The notes beneath the pieces are model-generated. The model did not search any database and had not been told where the DNA came from. It was given only the letters and a program-made list of their open reading frames with translations. Positions 33,357-44,026 of a stretch of DNA of 64,000 nt are shown here, piece by piece. The number at the start of each line of letters is the position of its first letter. Within the stretch, counting starts at the first letter, position 1. The stretch lies in assembly GCA_029210725.1 (NCBI GenBank), contig JARGFM010000004.1:62001-126000 (forward strand). The letters run 5' to 3'. The position numbers and the translations under genes are program-made. Source of the DNA: Bacteroidales bacterium (lineage in GTDB: Bacteria; Bacteroidota; Bacteroidia; Bacteroidales; GCA-2748055).

Positions 33357-33959
33357 TTACCGTTGTCTCTGTTCCAGGACGGAGACCACCTCCCGGATAT
33401 CCTTTCCCTTTGCGGATAACAGTACCAGCAGATGATACAGCAGGTCGGCTGCCTCATTGAGGAAGAGCTCATCGTTGCTGTCTTTGGATTCAATTAACAG
33501 TTCAACGGCCTCCTCTCCCACCTTCCGGGCGATCCGGTTGATCCCGTCCCGGAACAGGGAGGTGGTGTAAGAACCTGCGGGCATCTCCGCTTTGCGCTTA
33601 TGGATCAGTTGCTGGAGCTCCTGGATAAAAGCCATTTTATTCCTGTCCGGGGTGGCTTTGTTCTGCTCATCAAAGCAGGTGTCATTTCCGGTATGGCAGA
33701 CCGGTCCGGCCGGGTTGGCCTTAATCAACAAGGTGTCCCTATCGCAGTCTTCCAGGATTTCCACAACATGCAGGAAATTCCCGCTCTCCTCCCCTTTGGT
33801 CCAAAGCCTGTTTTTCGTACGGCTGAAAAAGGTAACCTTCCCCTCCTGCCTGGTCTTTTCCAGGGCTTCGGGGTTCATAAAACCTAGCATTAACACAATA
33901 TCTGTTTCGGCATCCTGTATAATGGCTGGCACGATCCCATTTAGTTTCTGAAAGTCCAT
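33357..33959 (-). CDS. hisIE: bifunctional phosphoribosyl-AMP cyclohydrolase / phosphoribosyl-ATP pyrophosphatase
   Basis: Steps 2 and 3 of histidine synthesis in one 200-residue protein. The HisI part (1-105) has VLMLGFMNPEAL, FSRTKNRLWTKGEESGN and the metal-binding CDRDTLL and GPVCHTGNDTCF. The HisE part (about 115-200) has SYTTSLFRDGINRIARKVGEEAVELLIESK, an all-alpha pyrophosphatase. Last gene of the his operon, one base after hisF. Confidence 0.96.
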   Translation of the reverse strand: MDFQKLNGIVPAIIQDAETDIVLMLGFMNPEALEKTRQEGKVTFFSRTKNRLWTKGEESGNFLHVVEILEDCDRDTLLIKANPAGPVCHTGNDTCFDEQNKATPDRNKMAFIQELQQLIHKRKAEMPAGSYTTSLFRDGINRIARKVGEEAVELLIESKDSNDELFLNEAADLLYHLLVLLSAKGKDIREVVSVLEQRQR

Positions 33960-33960
33960 A

Positions 33961-34713
33961 TTATCTGATTGTTATATGATTTTTCTTTAAGTACTCCTTC
34001 AATTCAGGAACAGGAATCTCATTGTAGTGGAAAATGGATGCTGCCAGAGCAGCATCGGCTTTGCCCTGTTCAAACACCTCCACAAAATGTTCCCTTTTTC
34101 CGGCTCCTCCTGAAGCAATCACCGGAATGGTCAGCTGCTCCGACAACTCCCTCAAAGCTTCGCACGCAAAACCATTCTTGGTCCCATCGTGATTCATGGA
34201 AGTAAACAGGATCTCCCCTGCGCCACGCTCCTGTACCTCCCTGGCCCAGCTAAAGAGCTCCCTGCCGGTGGGGATCCTCCCACCGTTGATAAAGACGGTC
34301 CAGCGCTCCTCCTTCCAGCGGGCATCGATGGCCACCACCACAAACTGGTTTCCGAAACCTTTGGCTATACGGTCGACCAGTCCGGGATCCCGCACAGCCG
34401 ATGAATTAATACTTACCTTATCGGCTCCTGCCGACAGCAGCAGTTCTGCATCTCCCACCTGGTCGATGCCGCCCCCCACGGTAAAGGGGATATTCAGCTC
34501 CTCCGAGATACGCCTCACCAGATCGGCAAAGAGTTTTCGCCCCTCGTGGGTGGCCGTGATATCCAGATAGACCAGCTCATCGGCGCCATCGCGGGCATAC
34601 CTGGCCCCCAGTTCCACGGGATCACCCACATCCACCACATTTTCGAAGTTGATCCCCTTTACGGTCTTCCCGTTTCGGATATCCAGGCAGGGTATGATCC
34701 TTTTAGCCAGCAT
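33961..34713 (-). CDS. hisF: imidazole glycerol phosphate synthase, cyclase subunit
   Basis: TIM-barrel cyclase of 250 residues making imidazole glycerol phosphate and AICAR from PRFAR with ammonia from HisH. It opens [20 protein letters not shown], with the catalytic Asp in CLDI and the later Asp in [13 protein letters not shown]; the phosphate loops VGGGI and [11 protein letters not shown] are present. One base separates it from hisA and one from hisIE. Confidence 0.97.
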
Positions 34714-34714
34714 G

Positions 34715-35443
34715 TCAGCGTTGATTTAAAATATAAGTTTCAAGAGTTTTCAAGGGGATTTTTCCCTCATAGATCGCCTTACCGACAATGGCCCCGTCGA
34801 TTCCCTCTTTCTCCAGGAGCTCCAGATCGTCCATCCCGCTAATCCCGCCACTGGCCACCAGGTGCAGCTCCCCGTCGCTGGCTTTAAGCTCCTTATAAAT
34901 CTCCAGCGAAGGTCCCTCCAGCATTCCGTCCCTTTCAATATCGGTACAGATAACCTTTTTAATTCCTTCGGAACGATAAGCGGCAATAAACGCCCCCAGT
35001 TCGAGAGAAGTGTCTTCGTTCCATCCTGAAACCGCCAGCTTACCTTCCCTGAAATCGGCCCCCAGGATAATCCTGTCTGCCCCGTAGCGCTCCAGCCATC
35101 CAAGAAAGAGATCCCGCTCCCTGACAGCTACGCTTCCCCCGGTTATCATGTGGGCGCCCGAGTCAAATACGATCTTCAGATCCTTATCGCTCCGTATTCC
35201 CCCGCCCGCGTCGATCACCAGGGATGTCCGGGAAGCGATCCTCTCGAGGATCCGGTAGTTCACCACCCTGTTTTCCCTGGCCCCGTCCAGATCTACCAGG
35301 TGCAGTCTCCTGATCCCGTGATCCTCGAACAGCAGGGCCATTTCAAAGGGATCGCCATACTCCTTTTTCCGCCCGTAGTCGCCCCTGGTAAGACGGACAC
35401 AACGCCCTTCAATAATATCTATGGCTGGTATAATCTCCATCAT
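34715..35443 (-). CDS. hisA: ProFAR isomerase
   Basis: TIM-barrel isomerase of 242 residues acting on 5'-ProFAR, step 4 of the pathway. The start [20 protein letters not shown] contains the catalytic Asp; [15 protein letters not shown] carries the second one, and [11 protein letters not shown] the phosphate loop. It overlaps hisH by four bases (ATGA). Confidence 0.96.
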
Positions 35444-36024
35444 AGTTTCAAAAATTGTTTCAGTATCAACTCTCCCGGATCTCCGCTCTTTTCGGGATGG
35501 AACTGGGTGGCATAAAAATTATCTTTCTGCATGGCGGCACTGAAAGGAACGATATAATCGGTTTTCGCTGCGGTATCTTCACCCACCGGTACATAGTAAG
35601 AATGCACGAAATAAACATAAGCGCCCCGGAGTTCACCGGGAATCAGCTTCCCGTTCACCCAATCGAGGCTGTTCCAGCCCATATGCGGCACTTTTAGTCC
35701 GCCCGAAGGAAAACGCCTCACCGGCGCATCAAAGATGCCAATACAGGACGTATCACCCTCCTCCGACCAGCTGCACATCAGCTGTTGCCCCAGGCAGATT
35801 CCCAGAACCGGACAGCGAAGTTCCTTCAGCAATTTATCCAGCTCCCGCTCCTTCAGGTACTCCATGGTACCGGAGGCCTCGCCCACACCGGGAAAGATCA
35901 CCCTGTCGGCCGAAAGAATCGTTGCAGGGTCGTCCGTAATCTTTGCTTCCACCCCCAATCTTCTGAGGGCATGGTCCACCGAGCGGATATTCCCTGCATT
36001 GTATTTAATAATGGCCAGCTTCAT
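35440..36024 (-). CDS. hisH: imidazole glycerol phosphate synthase, glutamine amidotransferase subunit
   Basis: Class I glutaminase of 194 residues supplying ammonia to HisF. Nucleophile Cys in VLGICLGQQLM; the His and Glu of the triad are in ATQFHPEKSGDPG. Oxyanion region RVIFPGVGEA is clear. It overlaps hisA and starts 13 bases after hisB. Confidence 0.96.
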   Translation of the reverse strand: MKLAIIKYNAGNIRSVDHALRRLGVEAKITDDPATILSADRVIFPGVGEASGTMEYLKERELDKLLKELRCPVLGICLGQQLMCSWSEEGDTSCIGIFDAPVRRFPSGGLKVPHMGWNSLDWVNGKLIPGELRGAYVYFVHSYYVPVGEDTAAKTDYIVPFSAAMQKDNFYATQFHPEKSGDPGELILKQFLKL

Positions 36025-36037
36025 TCAGTGTTGCTTT

Positions 36038-37162
36038 TTAAAGTTTCCCTTTGGTGCTTGGCAGGCGCATACTCTCAGGATCCAGTTTAACCGCCTTTGC
36101 CAGGGCCCTGGCAAAGGCCTTGAAAAGGCCCTCGATTTTATGGTGTTCGTTTTTGCCTTTCACCTCCATGTTCAGGTTGCATTTTGCCGCATCGGAAAAA
36201 CTCTTGAAAAAATGATAGAACATCTCCGTGGGCATATCACCGATTTTATCCCGACTGAATTTCGCGTTCCATTCGATCCATGGCCTTCCGCCAAAATCAA
36301 TGGCCACGCTGGCCAGGGAATCATCCATGGGTAAGACAAAAGCATAACGCTCTATGCCCCGCTTATCTCCCAGTGCCTGCAGAAAGGCCTCTCCCAGAGC
36401 AATGGCGGTATCCTCAATGGTATGATGCTCATCCACATGCAGATCCCCTCTCACCTCAATGTCCAGATCCATTCCCCCGTGACGGCCGATCTGATCCAGC
36501 ATGTGATCGAAAAATCCGAGTCCTGTGGAGATGGCAGTACGCCCCTCTCCATCCAGGGAAAGCCTGACTGAAATCTCCGTTTCGCTGGTCGAGCGCCGCA
36601 CTGTGGCACTCCGCTGCCTGGTCCGGATAAAGTGATAGATCTCGTCCCATTCCTGGCAGATCAGAGATACATATCCGGCTACTCCGGCAGATTCCATCTC
36701 CTCAGCAGCTTCCTCCGTATTCAGAAAAATTCCCCTGGCCCCCAGGTTTTTAGCAAGCTCCATATCGGTGATCCGGTCGCCGATTACAAAAGAATTCTCC
36801 AGATCGTATTCTCCCTGCATATAGGAACTCAGCATTCCGGTCCGGGGTTTCCGTTTGGGTGAGTTCTCTTCCGGCAGGGAGGGATCCAGGTGAATGGCAT
36901 CAAACTCCACCCCCTCATTCCTGAATGCTTGAAGGAATTTCTCATGGGGTGCCCGGAAATCTTCTTCCGGGAAAGCAGCGGTTCCCAATCCATCCTGATT
37001 GCTGACCACCACCAGCTCATAGTCCGTGTATTGCCTCAGCTTATACAGGTTTCTGAAAACGCCGGGCATAAACACCAGCTTTTCCAGGGAATCCACCTGG
37101 AAATCCACCGGGGGCTCCTTAATCAGGGTTCCGTCCCTGTCGATGAAAAGGACTTTCTTCAT
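36038..37162 (-). CDS. hisB: bifunctional histidinol-phosphatase / imidazoleglycerol-phosphate dehydratase
   Basis: A 374-residue fusion. Residues 1-170 are a HAD phosphatase ([14 protein letters not shown] nucleophile Asp, [23 protein letters not shown]). Residues 180-374 are the dehydratase, with manganese-binding [20 protein letters not shown] and [11 protein letters not shown], then [16 protein letters not shown]. The fused form is as in enterobacteria and Bacteroidota. It overlaps hisC by four bases. Confidence 0.97.
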
Positions 37163-38205
37163 GAATGATAGGTTTTAAGGGCACTGATCAATGCCCGGTT
37201 CTCTTCCGCTTTTCCTATGGTGATACGCAGGCTCCCCCCGCAAAGGGGTACCGACGAGCGGTCCCGGACAATAATGCCCTTGTTCATAAGATACCGGTAT
37301 ATGGCTGAGGGCTTGTCCACCCGGACCAGCAGAAAATTGGCATCCGAAGGATACACCTGCTTCACAAAGGGGAGTCCTTCCAGCTCCAGGGCCATCCGCT
37401 TACGCTCCTCCAAAATCGTTCCGATCCATGCCCGGGTCCGGTCCCTGTCCTCCAGGGCTTTCAGGGCCGCCTCCATGCTCAGGCTGTTAATGTTGTAGGG
37501 ATACTTTACAGCGGACAGATAGGCGATGAGCTCCGGATGGGCAAAGAGCATGCCCAGGCGTATCCCTGCCAGTCCCCAGGCTTTCGAGAGGGTCTGTAAA
37601 AGCACCAGATTGGGCTTCTCCTTCAACAGGGGAAGAAGTCCGGGACCACTACTGAAATCGATGTAGGCCTCATCCAGCACCACCATGCAATGTACCCCGT
37701 CCACGATCTTTAAGATCGCCTCCCGCTCAAAGGAGTTGGAGCTTGGATTATTGGGCGAACACAGAAATATAAGTTTGGTCTGCTCGTTCAATGCCTCCAG
37801 CACGGCCCCGGGGTTCAGGCTGAAATCCCTGTTCAGCAATACGCTTCGCCGTTCCACTCCGTTGATCTCCGCACAAACCCCGTACATGCCATAAGTAGGG
37901 TCTGCGGTAATGACATTATCCACTCCCGGTTCACAAAGTACCCTGAATAAAATATCGATCCCCTCATCGCTGCCGTTACCCAGAAAAATCTGCTCCGTGT
38001 TTACGCCTTTGATCTCTGCAATCCGGCCTTTCAGTTTCTGCTGACCCGGGTCCGGGTAACGGTTCAGCGGAGCATTAAAAGGATTTTCGTTGGCATCCAG
38101 AAACACGGAGGCCGAACCGGAGAATTCATCCCGGGCCGACGAATAGGGATGCAGATTCCGGATATTGGGCCTGACCCGGGATGCTATGCTAAATATCTCA
38201 GCCAC
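37159..38205 (-). CDS. hisC: histidinol-phosphate aminotransferase
   Basis: PLP class I/II aminotransferase of 348 residues. [18 protein letters not shown] is the family opening, [13 protein letters not shown] the phosphate region, [10 protein letters not shown] and [11 protein letters not shown] bind PLP, and the Lys of [17 protein letters not shown] forms the Schiff base. It overlaps hisD by 8 bases and hisB by 4. Confidence 0.96.
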
Positions 38206-39487
38206 CTTCTCCGGAACTTAAGCGGATGGAGACCGCATTGCTGTGCGCCTGAAGCTCTTCTGCCTCAGCCATGGCCATAATGGCATCCCCGATATTCACC
38301 AGTCCGTATTTGCTGATCTCCTGGAAGGTGATCTTTTTATAGAAACTATCCATATTGATCCCGCTGTAGGAACGGGCCCAGCCGTTGGTGGGAAGAGTAT
38401 GATTGGTTCCGGATGCATAATCTCCGGCACTCTCGGGGCTATAGTCGCCCAGGAAAACCGATCCCGCATTCTCTACCTGTTCGGCCAGGTCCGGATAATT
38501 TTTGGTCACAATAATCAGGTGTTCCGGAGCATAGAGATTGACCATCTCCATAATCTCCTTCTGAGTCTTAAGAAGCACCATCTTGCTGTTATCCAGAGCC
38601 TTGGATGCTATCTCCTTCCTGGGAAGGTCTTTCAGCTGCTTCTGAAGCTCAGCCTGTACCCGCTCAATCATATCGGAAGAGTCGGTGAGCAGCAACACCT
38701 GGCTATCGGGGCCATGTTCGGCCTGGGAAAGCAGGTCGGAGGCTATAAAGGCCGGATTGGCCGCACTATCTGCCACCACCGTTAATTCGGATGGTCCGGC
38801 AGGCAAATCGATGGCCACCGTATCGAGGCTCACTATCTGCTTGGCTTTGGTCACGTACTGGTTACCGGGACCGAAGATCTTACTGACTGCAGGAATGCTT
38901 TCCGTTCCGTAAGCCATGGCTGCAATGGCCTGTGCTCCGCCAACCTTAAAGACCCGGTCGATCCCCAGCAGATCGGCGATATAGAGGATGGAGGGGCTAA
39001 TCCTGCCGGCACTGTCGGGCGGCGTGCAAAGAATTACCTCCCCGCAACCCGCCAGCTTGGCGGGGATCCCCAGCATCAGGACAGTGGAAAGCAATGGTGC
39101 CGAGCCACCAGGGATGTAGAGCCCCACACTGCTCATGGGAACCGGTTTTCTCCAGCAGCGGACCCCGGCAGTGGTGACAATGACTTCGCTGTGCTGTATC
39201 TGCTTTTTATGGAAGGTCTGGATATTCCAGTGCGCTTCGTCAATGGCCTTCTTCAATCTGGGGCTCACTTCGTCCCGGGCTGCCAGGATCTCCTCCCCGC
39301 TTACCTCCATGGATACGGAATCATACCCGTCAAACTCCCGGGTAAAGGCCACTACGGCAGCATCCCTCTTCCTGGCCACTTCATCAATAATTTTCTGGAC
39401 CTGGTCTTCCAGAGTATCATGATTCAGCCGGGGCCGCTGAAGCAGTTCTGCCCATTTGCTTTTTTCAGGATAACGAAGAATATTCAT
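38198..39487 (-). CDS. hisD: histidinol dehydrogenase
   Basis: Zinc- and NAD-dependent enzyme of 429 residues for the last two oxidations to histidine. KPVPMSSVGLYIPGGSAPLLSTVLM, the long block KIFGPGNQYVTKAKQ, ASDLLSQAEHGPDSQ (zinc Gln and His) and YAPEHLIIVT are all conserved. It starts 15 bases after hisG. Confidence 0.97.
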   Translation of the reverse strand: MNILRYPEKSKWAELLQRPRLNHDTLEDQVQKIIDEVARKRDAAVVAFTREFDGYDSVSMEVSGEEILAARDEVSPRLKKAIDEAHWNIQTFHKKQIQHSEVIVTTAGVRCWRKPVPMSSVGLYIPGGSAPLLSTVLMLGIPAKLAGCGEVILCTPPDSAGRISPSILYIADLLGIDRVFKVGGAQAIAAMAYGTESIPAVSKIFGPGNQYVTKAKQIVSLDTVAIDLPAGPSELTVVADSAANPAFIASDLLSQAEHGPDSQVLLLTDSSDMIERVQAELQKQLKDLPRKEIASKALDNSKMVLLKTQKEIMEMVNLYAPEHLIIVTKNYPDLAEQVENAGSVFLGDYSPESAGDYASGTNHTLPTNGWARSYSGINMDSFYKKITFQEISKYGLVNIGDAIMAMAEAEELQAHSNAVSIRLSSGEGG

Positions 39488-39502: not shown

Positions 39503-40360
39503 TTAGACAATCATTTTCTCAATGGGTATAACCAGAATCCCCTGGGCACCCAGTTCCCGGAGGCGGTCGATGACTCCCCAGAACTCCTTTTCGCTTAATA
39601 CCGAGTGAACCGAGCTCCACCCCTCTTCAGCCAGCGGCATTACGGTGGGACTCTTCATTCCGGGGATGGTTTCAATAATCTGCCGGAGGTTTTCATTAGG
39701 GGCATTCAGCAGAATGTATCTGTTACTGGAAGCGGCCATGACACTGCGGATCCTGAAGATCAGATCGTTCAGCACCAGCTGTATATCCTTCTCCATATCC
39801 CGGTTGGCAATGATCACGGCCTCCGACTTCATGACCACCTCCACCTCTTTCAGACCGTTGCTGATCAGGGTGCTTCCCGAGCTGACAATATCAAAAATGG
39901 CATCAGCCATCCCGATGGAAGGGGCCAGCTCCACCGAGCCGCTCAATACATGGATATCGGCCTTTACCCCGTGTTCCTGCAGGTACCTCTCCAGGATGAC
40001 CGGGTAGGAAGTAGCGATCCTTTTTCCCTTCAGATCCTCCAGGCCGGAGTAGCTCTCTGATTTGGGAACGGCAATGGAGAGCCTGCAGCGCGAGTATCCC
40101 AGTCTTTCCAGCAGATCTACCTGACACTCTTTTTCCGCATATTCATTCTCCCCGACGATCCCGATGTGGGCCACTCCGTCCTCCACATACCGGGGGATAT
40201 CATCATCCCGGAGGTAGATCACCTCCAGGGGAAAGGTCTGGGCCACCGACCTCAGTTTCCTGGAACCATTATTCAGGGAGATTCCGGCCTCTTTCAGAAG
40301 CAGTAAAGATTTCTCGCTGAGACGGCCCGATTTCTGTATGGCGATTCTTAGTTTTTTCAT
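39503..40360 (-). CDS. hisG: ATP phosphoribosyltransferase, long form
   Basis: First and committed enzyme of histidine synthesis, 285 residues. It is the long form with a C-terminal ACT-like regulatory domain (from about residue 215, MKSPTVMPLAEEGWSSVHSVL), so feedback inhibition by histidine is expected and no HisZ is needed. Catalytic core: RIAIQKSGRLSE, GVAHIGIVGENE and DIVSSGSTLISNGL. First structural gene of the operon, 15 bases downstream of the attenuator. Confidence 0.96.
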   Translation of the reverse strand: MKKLRIAIQKSGRLSEKSLLLLKEAGISLNNGSRKLRSVAQTFPLEVIYLRDDDIPRYVEDGVAHIGIVGENEYAEKECQVDLLERLGYSRCRLSIAVPKSESYSGLEDLKGKRIATSYPVILERYLQEHGVKADIHVLSGSVELAPSIGMADAIFDIVSSGSTLISNGLKEVEVVMKSEAVIIANRDMEKDIQLVLNDLIFRIRSVMAASSNRYILLNAPNENLRQIIETIPGMKSPTVMPLAEEGWSSVHSVLSEKEFWGVIDRLRELGAQGILVIPIEKMIV

Positions 40361-40374
40361 GCCGATTGTTTTAA

Positions 40375-40405
40375 CAAAAAAAGGTCTGCAGTATCTGCAA
40401 ACCTC
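40375..40405 (-). terminator. his operon attenuator terminator
   Basis: On the minus strand AGGTTTGCAG (40404-40395) and CTGCAGACCT (40391-40382) form a 10-bp stem with one G-U pair and a 3-base loop, followed at once by seven T. It lies between the leader peptide and hisG, so it should stop transcription when histidine is plentiful. A convincing antiterminator partner was not found by eye. Confidence 0.85.
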
Positions 40406-40444
40406 TTAACTTTTTATCCGGATTACAATGTACTACACAGCTTC

Positions 40445-40504
40445 CTAACCAAACACATGGTGATGGTGGTGGTGATGAACGCTATGTTGCCTGTAAAACC
40501 TCAT
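40445..40504 (-). CDS. hisL: his operon leader peptide
   Basis: A 19-codon frame on the minus strand, starting ATG at 40504 and ending TAG at 40445. It encodes MRFYRQHSV, then seven consecutive histidines (CAT and CAC codons, 40477-40457), then VFG. Together with the His at codon 7 there are eight His in 19 residues. Position (12 bases after the predicted transcription start region, 40 bases before a terminator hairpin, followed by hisG) makes it a histidine-sensing leader peptide: ribosome stalling at the His codons should prevent the terminator from forming. Confidence 0.92.
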   Translation of the reverse strand: MRFYRQHSVHHHHHHHVFG

Positions 40505-40521
40505 GCTTTTAAAATGTTTTG

Positions 40522-40552
40522 CAATATTAGCGAATAATATCTAAAATTCAAA
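40522..40552 (-). promoter_or_regulatory. his operon promoter
   Basis: On the minus strand TTTG (40552-40549), a 19-base spacer, and TAATATTG (40529-40522), one base from the TAnnTTTG consensus. It is placed 18 bases before the leader-peptide start. Confidence 0.68.
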
Positions 40553-42747: not shown

Positions 42748-44026
42748 ATGAGAAAGAGATTCGAGCAACAATTCATACTGGGCCACCTGCCCATCCATGA
42801 GACTCCGGTTCCCAAAGGACCGAGAGGAGGAGCGCTACCCAAATTAGTTGCAGCATTGAAAGAGATCTATGTCACCCCAAAGTGGAACGAGCGGGTTTTC
42901 GAGATACTGGAGTCAAAAATAACTGTCGGCAAGAAGCAGACCGGCCGTCCCGGCATGGATCTGTGGCAGATTTTTGTATTGGCACAAGTACGGTTAGTCC
43001 AGAATATAGGCTACGATGAACTTCTCGATCTGGCAAATTATCACACTTTGATCCGTCAGCTCATGGGCGTTGAGAGCGGCTTTGGTTATGAGAAGTACCA
43101 GTTTGAGTATCAGAATATTTATGATAATGTAACGCTATTGGATGATGAGACCGTACGTGAGTTGAACCAGGTGATCCTGGAGTTCGGTCATGAGGTGTTT
43201 AAAAAAAAAAGAGGCGGCAGCATTGTGCTTAAAGACCGATAGCTTCGTTGTAGAGAGCAATGTACACTTCCCAACAGATTACAATCTGATGTGGGATAGT
43301 GGCCGCAAAGGACTTGATATCATCGGCAAATTCATGGCAAAGTATCCGGGCGAGGTTAAAGGATGGAGAAAGATACACGACTGGTATCGCCGGATGAAAA
43401 ACGCAATGAGAGCTGTAGGAAAAGCAAGCTCATCGGGAGGCAGGAACAAGGAAGATCGGATCGGGCATGAAGAAAAGGTCTTCTCCATTTTTGAGGAATA
43501 TACCGAATGGGTTACCAAAGGGAAACTGCATCCCAATGTGGAACTGGGGAAAAAGCTGTCTATTACTACAGACCAGTATCATCTGATTGTTGATTACCGT
43601 ATCATGGAGAACCATTCCGACTCTGAGGTGGTAAAGCCGATTGTAGAAGATATGACAGAGAAATATAATCTCAGAAGTTGGAGCTTTGACAAAGGCTACT
43701 GGCACAAAGACAACAAGGCACTGCTGGAAGAGCATGTCGAAAGGGTTGTGATGCCCAAGAAGGGCAAGCCCAATAAGCAGGAAAAGGAGGAGGAGGGCCA
43801 TCGACAGTTCAAGCTTTTGAGAAATAAGCACAGTGCCGTGGAATCTAACATCAATGAACTTGAAAACAGGGGATTGGACCGGTGTCCAGATCGGGGATAT
43901 ATGCACTTCAAACGGTATGTTGGCCTGGCAATCTCAGCCTATAACCTGAGAAGAATTGGACAGAAGTTGATTGAGATCCAGCGAAAAAGGGAACTGGCCG
44001 AACGAGAGTTAAGGGCGGCAGCCTAA
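42748..44026 (+). pseudogene. transposase in two frames joined at an A10 run
   Basis: The first frame (42748-43242) gives an N-terminal DNA-binding part (GKKQTGRPGMDLWQIFVLAQVRLVQNIGYDELLDLANY). The second (open from before 43190 to 44026) gives the catalytic part with LKTDSFVVESNVHFPTD, ITTDQYHLIVDY, SWSFDKGYW and HSAVESNINELENRG, the DDE-type core. The frames meet at ten A (43201-43210). One A fewer would make a single continuous protein (EVFKKKEAAALCLKTD). So it is either a recent 1-base insertion that killed the gene, or transcript slippage on the A run makes a little active enzyme. The needed shift is +1 (or -2), not the usual -1. Confidence 0.82.

Follow-up and report, generated by a model that had tools for sequence, protein, structure and literature searches.

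The window, a 64,000-nucleotide stretch of a Bacteroidales bacterium genome (contig JARGFM010000004.1, positions 62,001 to 126,000), carries on its minus strand a complete histidine operon of eight genes, hisGDC(NB)HAF(IE), whose open reading frames (ORFs) overlap or nearly abut one another (hisD to hisIE spanning 33357..39487). Ahead of hisG lie a promoter, a short histidine-rich ORF and a hairpin followed by a run of T, together with the segments designated here as regions 1 to 3. The features, with the evidence for each, are as follows.

40522..40552, minus strand: promoter of the Bacteroidota type, with TTTG at 40552-40549, N19, and TAATATTG at 40529-40522 (sequence)
40445..40504, minus strand: leader peptide ORF MRFYRQHSVHHHHHHHVFG*, 19 codons, ATG at 40504 (sequence)
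40481..40501, minus strand: region 1, codons 2-8 of the leader, AGGUUUUACAGGCAACAUAGC (minimum free energy fold; putative function)
40420..40440, minus strand: region 2, CUGUGUAGUACAUUGUAAUCC, with its core UUGUAAUCC at 40428-40420 (conserved non-coding sequence; predicted duplex)
40395..40404, minus strand: region 3, AGGUUUGCAG, the 5' arm of the terminator and the target of region 2 (17-genome alignment)
40376..40407, minus strand: intrinsic terminator, hairpin AAGAGGUUUGCAG-AUA-CUGCAGACCUUUU plus U7 tract (sequence and conservation)
39503..40360, minus strand: hisG, ATP phosphoribosyltransferase, long form, the first regulated gene (TIGR00070 and TIGR03455 above cut-off)
39487-38198, minus strand: hisD (NCBIfam above cut-off)
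38205-37159, minus strand: hisC (NCBIfam above cut-off)
37162-36038, minus strand: hisB, bifunctional (NCBIfam above cut-off)
36024-35440, minus strand: hisH (NCBIfam above cut-off)
35443-34715, minus strand: hisA (NCBIfam above cut-off)
34713-33961, minus strand: hisF (NCBIfam above cut-off)
33959-33357, minus strand: hisIE (NCBIfam above cut-off)

Beyond the neighbours of the operon, two overlapping ORFs of 164 and 278 amino acids in different frames (42748-44026) look like a single transposase-like gene split by a frameshift.

Direct reading of the minus strand, which the initial annotation had left unstated, confirmed its TTTG-N19-TAATATTG promoter and its 19-codon ORF with histidine at position 7 and positions 10-16. 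The promoter is one that we take to be of the Bacteroidota type from a generally known consensus; across 17 genus-level upstream regions the TAATATTGCA box is near-invariant, with variable sequence around it. Eight of the 19 leader codons specify histidine, namely codon 7 and the seven consecutive codons 10-16 (40477-40457), which read CAT CAC CAC CAC CAT CAC CAT. The His7 codon (40484-40486), set two to four codons ahead of the His run, recurs in most leaders of the genus and family. Roughly 40 nt after the leader ORF comes the hairpin (as DNA, GGTTTGCAG-ATA-CTGCAGACC, 40407-40379), the stem of which has nine pairs including one G-U, or ten, as previously described, when the flanking A-T is counted, or 13 when the A/T flank is included in the terminator scan; the seven T (40382-40376) and the 15-nt gap before the hisG start codon (ATG at 40360) likewise agree with the earlier description. 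The segment 40370-40520 has a lower folding energy than 199 of 200 dinucleotide shuffles (-39.9 versus -28.9 kcal/mol, z -3.1). In the fold predicted for the untranslated leader, region 1, which is similar to region 3, pairs with region 2.

Upstream regions of hisG were gathered by protein search of relatives' whole genomes and from named genomes, and the closest named records proved to be uncultured Bacteroidales or Bacteroidota metagenome-assembled genomes (MAGs), several of them of the CSMAG series. All 17 hisG-bearing genomes sampled from the genus possess a His-rich leader and a near-invariant terminator. Most of these leaders take the form MR-x-Y-R-x-H-S-V-H-H-H-H-H-H-x-x-G and end approximately 82-91 nt upstream of hisG (75 nt in two), and the terminator is almost letter for letter AGGTTTGCAGATACTGCAGACCTTTTTT. 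All eight further family members likewise have a leader rich in His and a terminator of the AGGTTTGCAGATNCTGCAGACCTTTTTT type, following the same design with altered peptides (e.g., MKFYPVHQAHHVHHHFTNE and MKVISAHTNSRHHHHHGMNG), and in the 17 genus and eight family members the spacing from the leader stop codon to region 3 is 30-42 nt. Region 3 is invariant or nearly so in the 17 aligned genomes, and the few changes in the terminator stem within genus and family preserve pairing through G-U/A-U exchanges; because the stem is nearly invariant, covariation within it is uninformative at the genus level.

For the wider comparison, 84 hisG upstream regions from across the phylum, the window's genus included, were assembled from the best 30 HisG matches per search, a sample biased toward those matches and leaving out genomes with divergent HisG (E ~1e-30). 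An ORF with at least four His in six residues was found in 67 of these 84 best-match upstream regions, compared with 0.12% of 1680 dinucleotide shuffles, and one with at least five His in six residues in 36/84, compared with 0/1680 shuffles. The threshold of at least four in six was retained as the headline criterion, and that of at least three in six was dropped because the C-terminal IHEHILHSI of an upstream YihY-family gene may be enough to pass it. A hairpin-T-tract at or below -12 kcal/mol was present in 70 of the 84 (best HisG matches) versus 2/252 shuffles. Named examples include Bacteroides nordii (MKYTTHHHHHFPNE), Phocaeicola coprophilus (MIFTATHHHHHHHYLTNER), Draconibacterium orientale, Labilibacter, Maribellus, and Schleiferia thermophila; the leader or terminator is absent from some of the Bacteroidota hisG upstream regions sampled, for example Paludibacter-like loci and several rumen Bacteroidaceae/Prevotellaceae MAGs. 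Phylum-wide, the richness in His and its position are kept, and the peptide length, the arrangement of the His residues and the remaining sequence vary freely. The comparative alignment upstream of hisG that the initial annotation had proposed as a check thus recovers the same architecture, built from different sequences, across the phylum.

Folding, put forward there as the means of finding an antiterminator, gave a more divided answer, in that the duplex between regions 2 and 3 is conserved and covarying among relatives but is not significant against shuffles in the window alone (p 0.23). Between the leader stop codon and the terminator, the motif CUGUGYAGU...UGUAAYCC is conserved in the genus although non-coding, and the A-rich flank 3' of it is not conserved. 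The core of region 2, UUGUAAUCC, matches the terminator arm GGUUUGCAG by complementarity; in the window a single U-U mismatch interrupts the match, and several relatives of the same family have the uninterrupted complementary run UUGUAAAC. The pairs of region 2 and arm covary by lineage (UUGUAAUCC with GGUUUGCAG, GGURGGCC with GGCUUGCC, and UCAGGCGRG with CCCGUCUGA), and in other Bacteroidota the equivalent of region 2 overlaps the last leader codons and the stop codon. When tested from the last His codon onward, the 2:3 duplex is better than 95% of shuffles at 44 of the 74 de-replicated loci; in a test confined to the spacer between stop codon and terminator the signal is weaker, with 23.5% of loci reaching p 0.05, because in most other lineages region 2 extends into the last part of the leader ORF. 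In an arm-swap comparison with main effects removed, region 2 pairs better with its own arm than with the arms of other lineages (mean -2.15 kcal/mol, permutation sd 0.24), a difference reached by 0/5000 permutations, the loci not being fully independent. Judged from the aligned sequences, this signal is covariation between predicted alternative structures, as expected of an attenuator but not of an ordinary terminator. The evidence for the antiterminator comes from this comparison, since the window sequence by itself is weak.

These features make it highly probable that the locus is a ribosome-mediated (leader-peptide) transcription attenuator controlling the complete eight-gene his operon, and very probably one that turns the his genes on as histidine runs short. 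We infer that the promoter is used, that the leader is translated, that ribosomes stall on it, and that the operon responds to histidine through the charging of histidyl-tRNA. RNA polymerase would start approximately 10-15 nt upstream of the leader ORF, with a ribosome translating the 19-codon peptide behind it. Were histidyl-tRNA plentiful, the ribosome would clear the His run and leave, regions 1 and 2 would pair, and the hairpin formed by region 3 and the 3' arm of the terminator (region 4), together with the U7 tract, would terminate transcription ahead of hisG. Were charged histidyl-tRNA scarce, the ribosome would stall at His7 or within His10-16 and cover region 1 (a stall at His7 would cover it fully), leaving region 2 available for pairing with the emerging region 3; no terminator would then form, and the operon would be transcribed. 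This scheme was explored with a masking model, thermodynamic and without kinetics, in which transcripts were cut at the end of region 3 and a ribosome footprint was stepped over the codons. With early His codons masked (from His7 on), region 3 is predicted to be sequestered by region 2 more than it is without a ribosome in many loci, rising from 0.17 to 0.79 in L004, 0.30 to 0.76 in L006, 0.28 to 0.85 in L014, and 0.12 to 0.70 in L025, with clear increases also in L007 and L026. For the window the separation is weak, at 0.52 without a ribosome, 0.65-0.74 at the early His codons, and 0.79 at the stop codon. The model thus supports the mechanism without proving it.

Departures from the single-attenuator layout were observed at two sets of loci. 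In five loci of the Carboxylicivirga group (L099, L100, L101, L102, and L104), as well as in L098, L027, and L142, two His attenuators are arranged in series within approximately 400 nt upstream of hisG, in the order leader 1, terminator 1, leader 2, terminator 2, hisG; those of L100, for example, have the leaders MGNFTHHHHHFLLQSW and MTTVQFHIHHHHFLSRRMG. The Salmonella mgtCBR leader contains tandem attenuators with two short ORFs (PMC3641672), in comparison with which two histidine sensors in series would be another arrangement. A second set, comprising L059, L063, L069, L074, and L076 of the window's class and the similar L040, has His-rich leaders that lie approximately 100-150 nt before hisG and end in HHFHHSS or alike; a perfect palindrome, TTCCTC-YTRA-GAGGAA, spans their stop codon. 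These six loci have no hairpin-T terminator before hisG, and their output step must differ. Taken across the phylum, attenuation is probably old and general among Bacteroidota with long-form HisG, its RNA parts turning over while the design is kept, and probably diversified into tandem and terminator-less forms.

Related leaders occur elsewhere in the window's own genome. A trpE-like gene (contig C13) follows a Trp-rich leader, MTLIRTNWWWHSFFRQTGA, and a terminator, AGGGCTTCC...GGAAGCTTTTTTTT, and pheA (contig C14) follows a Phe/Tyr-rich leader, MHPIVSYMAFRSTVYYFYFFTCR (...VYYFYFFTCR), and the terminator CCCGGCTGTTGAGTCGGGTTTTTTG; on sequence grounds, both are likely to be further attenuators. 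Inspection of the ilvB, thrA, and lysC upstream regions of the same genome revealed no convincing leader. Judging by the trpE and pheA leaders, this genome therefore appears to make general use of leader-peptide attenuation.

Other explanations of the locus were weighed against these observations. The leader and hairpin could both be real with control exerted mainly on translation or via Rho, such that the His run senses histidine and the switch lies elsewhere; the palindrome-bearing loci, in which a His leader lacks a hairpin-T tract, do show that other outputs exist, but the hairpin and U-tract form the most conserved element in the genus and family, and the frequency of the terminator in the phylum sample (70/84 among the best HisG matches versus 2/252 shuffles) also argues against this account, which we consider improbable. 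Seven contiguous His could bind metal ions, and the ORF might accordingly encode a functional His-rich micropeptide (e.g., a metal-binding one), with the terminator merely ending an upstream transcript. This is very improbable, as nothing of the peptide but its richness in His and its position persists across the phylum, the antiterminator covaries with the terminator, and in the same genome trpE and pheA have leaders rich in Trp and Phe/Tyr instead. The scantest probability falls to control by a T-box, a riboswitch or another known structured RNA with the His ORF incidental, a reading in favour of which no observation was found. A scan of the whole window against Rfam at the gathering threshold returned no match, T-box included, and permissive scans of five hisG loci returned neither the His leader, up to E 5, nor a T-box, yielding solely sub-threshold matches (e.g., Thr_leader at 24.9 bits versus a cut-off of 55). 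Known RNA families, the T-box and the micropeptide were rejected on the Rfam negatives, the free variation of the peptide, and the covarying antiterminator. The ribosome-mediated attenuation originally suggested for the locus is supported, with the His run, terminator, and antiterminator conserved in both genus and family.

Leader-peptide attenuation is textbook enterobacterial biology, and the hisL leader of Escherichia coli and Salmonella combines seven consecutive His codons, a terminator before hisG, an alternative RNA structure, and a compact his operon. The locus in the window resembles hisL in its short seven-His leader, its intrinsic terminator before hisG, its alternative structure, and its compact operon; it differs in its Bacteroidota promoter, the additional conserved His7, its other RNA arms, the position of region 2 on the 3' side of the leader stop codon, and the lack of any similarity seen with Rfam models.

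Published surveys place leader-peptide attenuation chiefly in Proteobacteria, Actinobacteria, and part of the Firmicutes. According to Naville and Gautheret (2010; PMC2965389), such systems had been known only from Proteobacteria and Actinobacteria until those authors added Firmicutes, and the Firmicutes set was extended in 2022 (PMC9413887). His-leader attenuators have been described in the Bacillus cereus group, Peptostreptococcaceae, and Erysipelotrichales (PMC9413887) and for hisS/hisZ (PMC2965389). Like the Bacteroidota examples, the Firmicutes ones comprise a His-codon leader, a terminator, and an antiterminator recognized by comparative genomics; their His runs are three to five codons long and they occur in scattered lineages, whereas occurrence is near-general among the Bacteroidota hisG upstream regions sampled. 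Within Bacteroidota, strong clues to leader-peptide attenuation of amino-acid operons come from a transcriptome study of Flavobacterium psychrophilum published in 2021, which also describes structured elements, conserved among Flavobacteriaceae, ahead of hisG and pheA (PMC9723704). The hisG element shares the phylum, the gene, and the proposed mechanism with the present one and is based on mapped transcripts; it comes from a different lineage of the phylum, and the main text gives no sequence for it (PMC9723704). The statement in the initial annotation that such attenuation is little described in Bacteroidota is therefore fair, although it is not undescribed (PMC9723704). A paper on the his genes of Bacteroidota and sister phyla speaks of attenuation in enterobacteria only (PMC8305728), and a transcriptome map of Bacteroides thetaiotaomicron describes short ORFs in leaders that are reminiscent of attenuators, without naming his (PMC7366714). 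No phylum-wide description for Bacteroidota was found in the openly readable literature; the comparative survey of Lopatovskaya et al. (2010), cited in PMC4833913, might hold part of one. The mechanism is thus known and, within the phylum, already reported for one genus or family; its broad distribution and covarying antiterminators seem to be undocumented in the openly readable literature.

The attenuator in the window follows an ordinary mechanism, well supported, and its main use is as an entry to the phylum-wide set. Attenuation in most of the Bacteroidota hisG upstream regions sampled and their covarying antiterminators would amount to a set of small ORFs and RNA switches, so far without annotation, on the scale of the phylum, and to a sound basis for an Rfam family. 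Were attenuation in Bacteroidota so old and general, ribosomes there would have to stay close behind RNA polymerase on these leaders. The leaders would provide a natural assay of transcription-translation coupling in the phylum, including gut Bacteroides and Phocaeicola.
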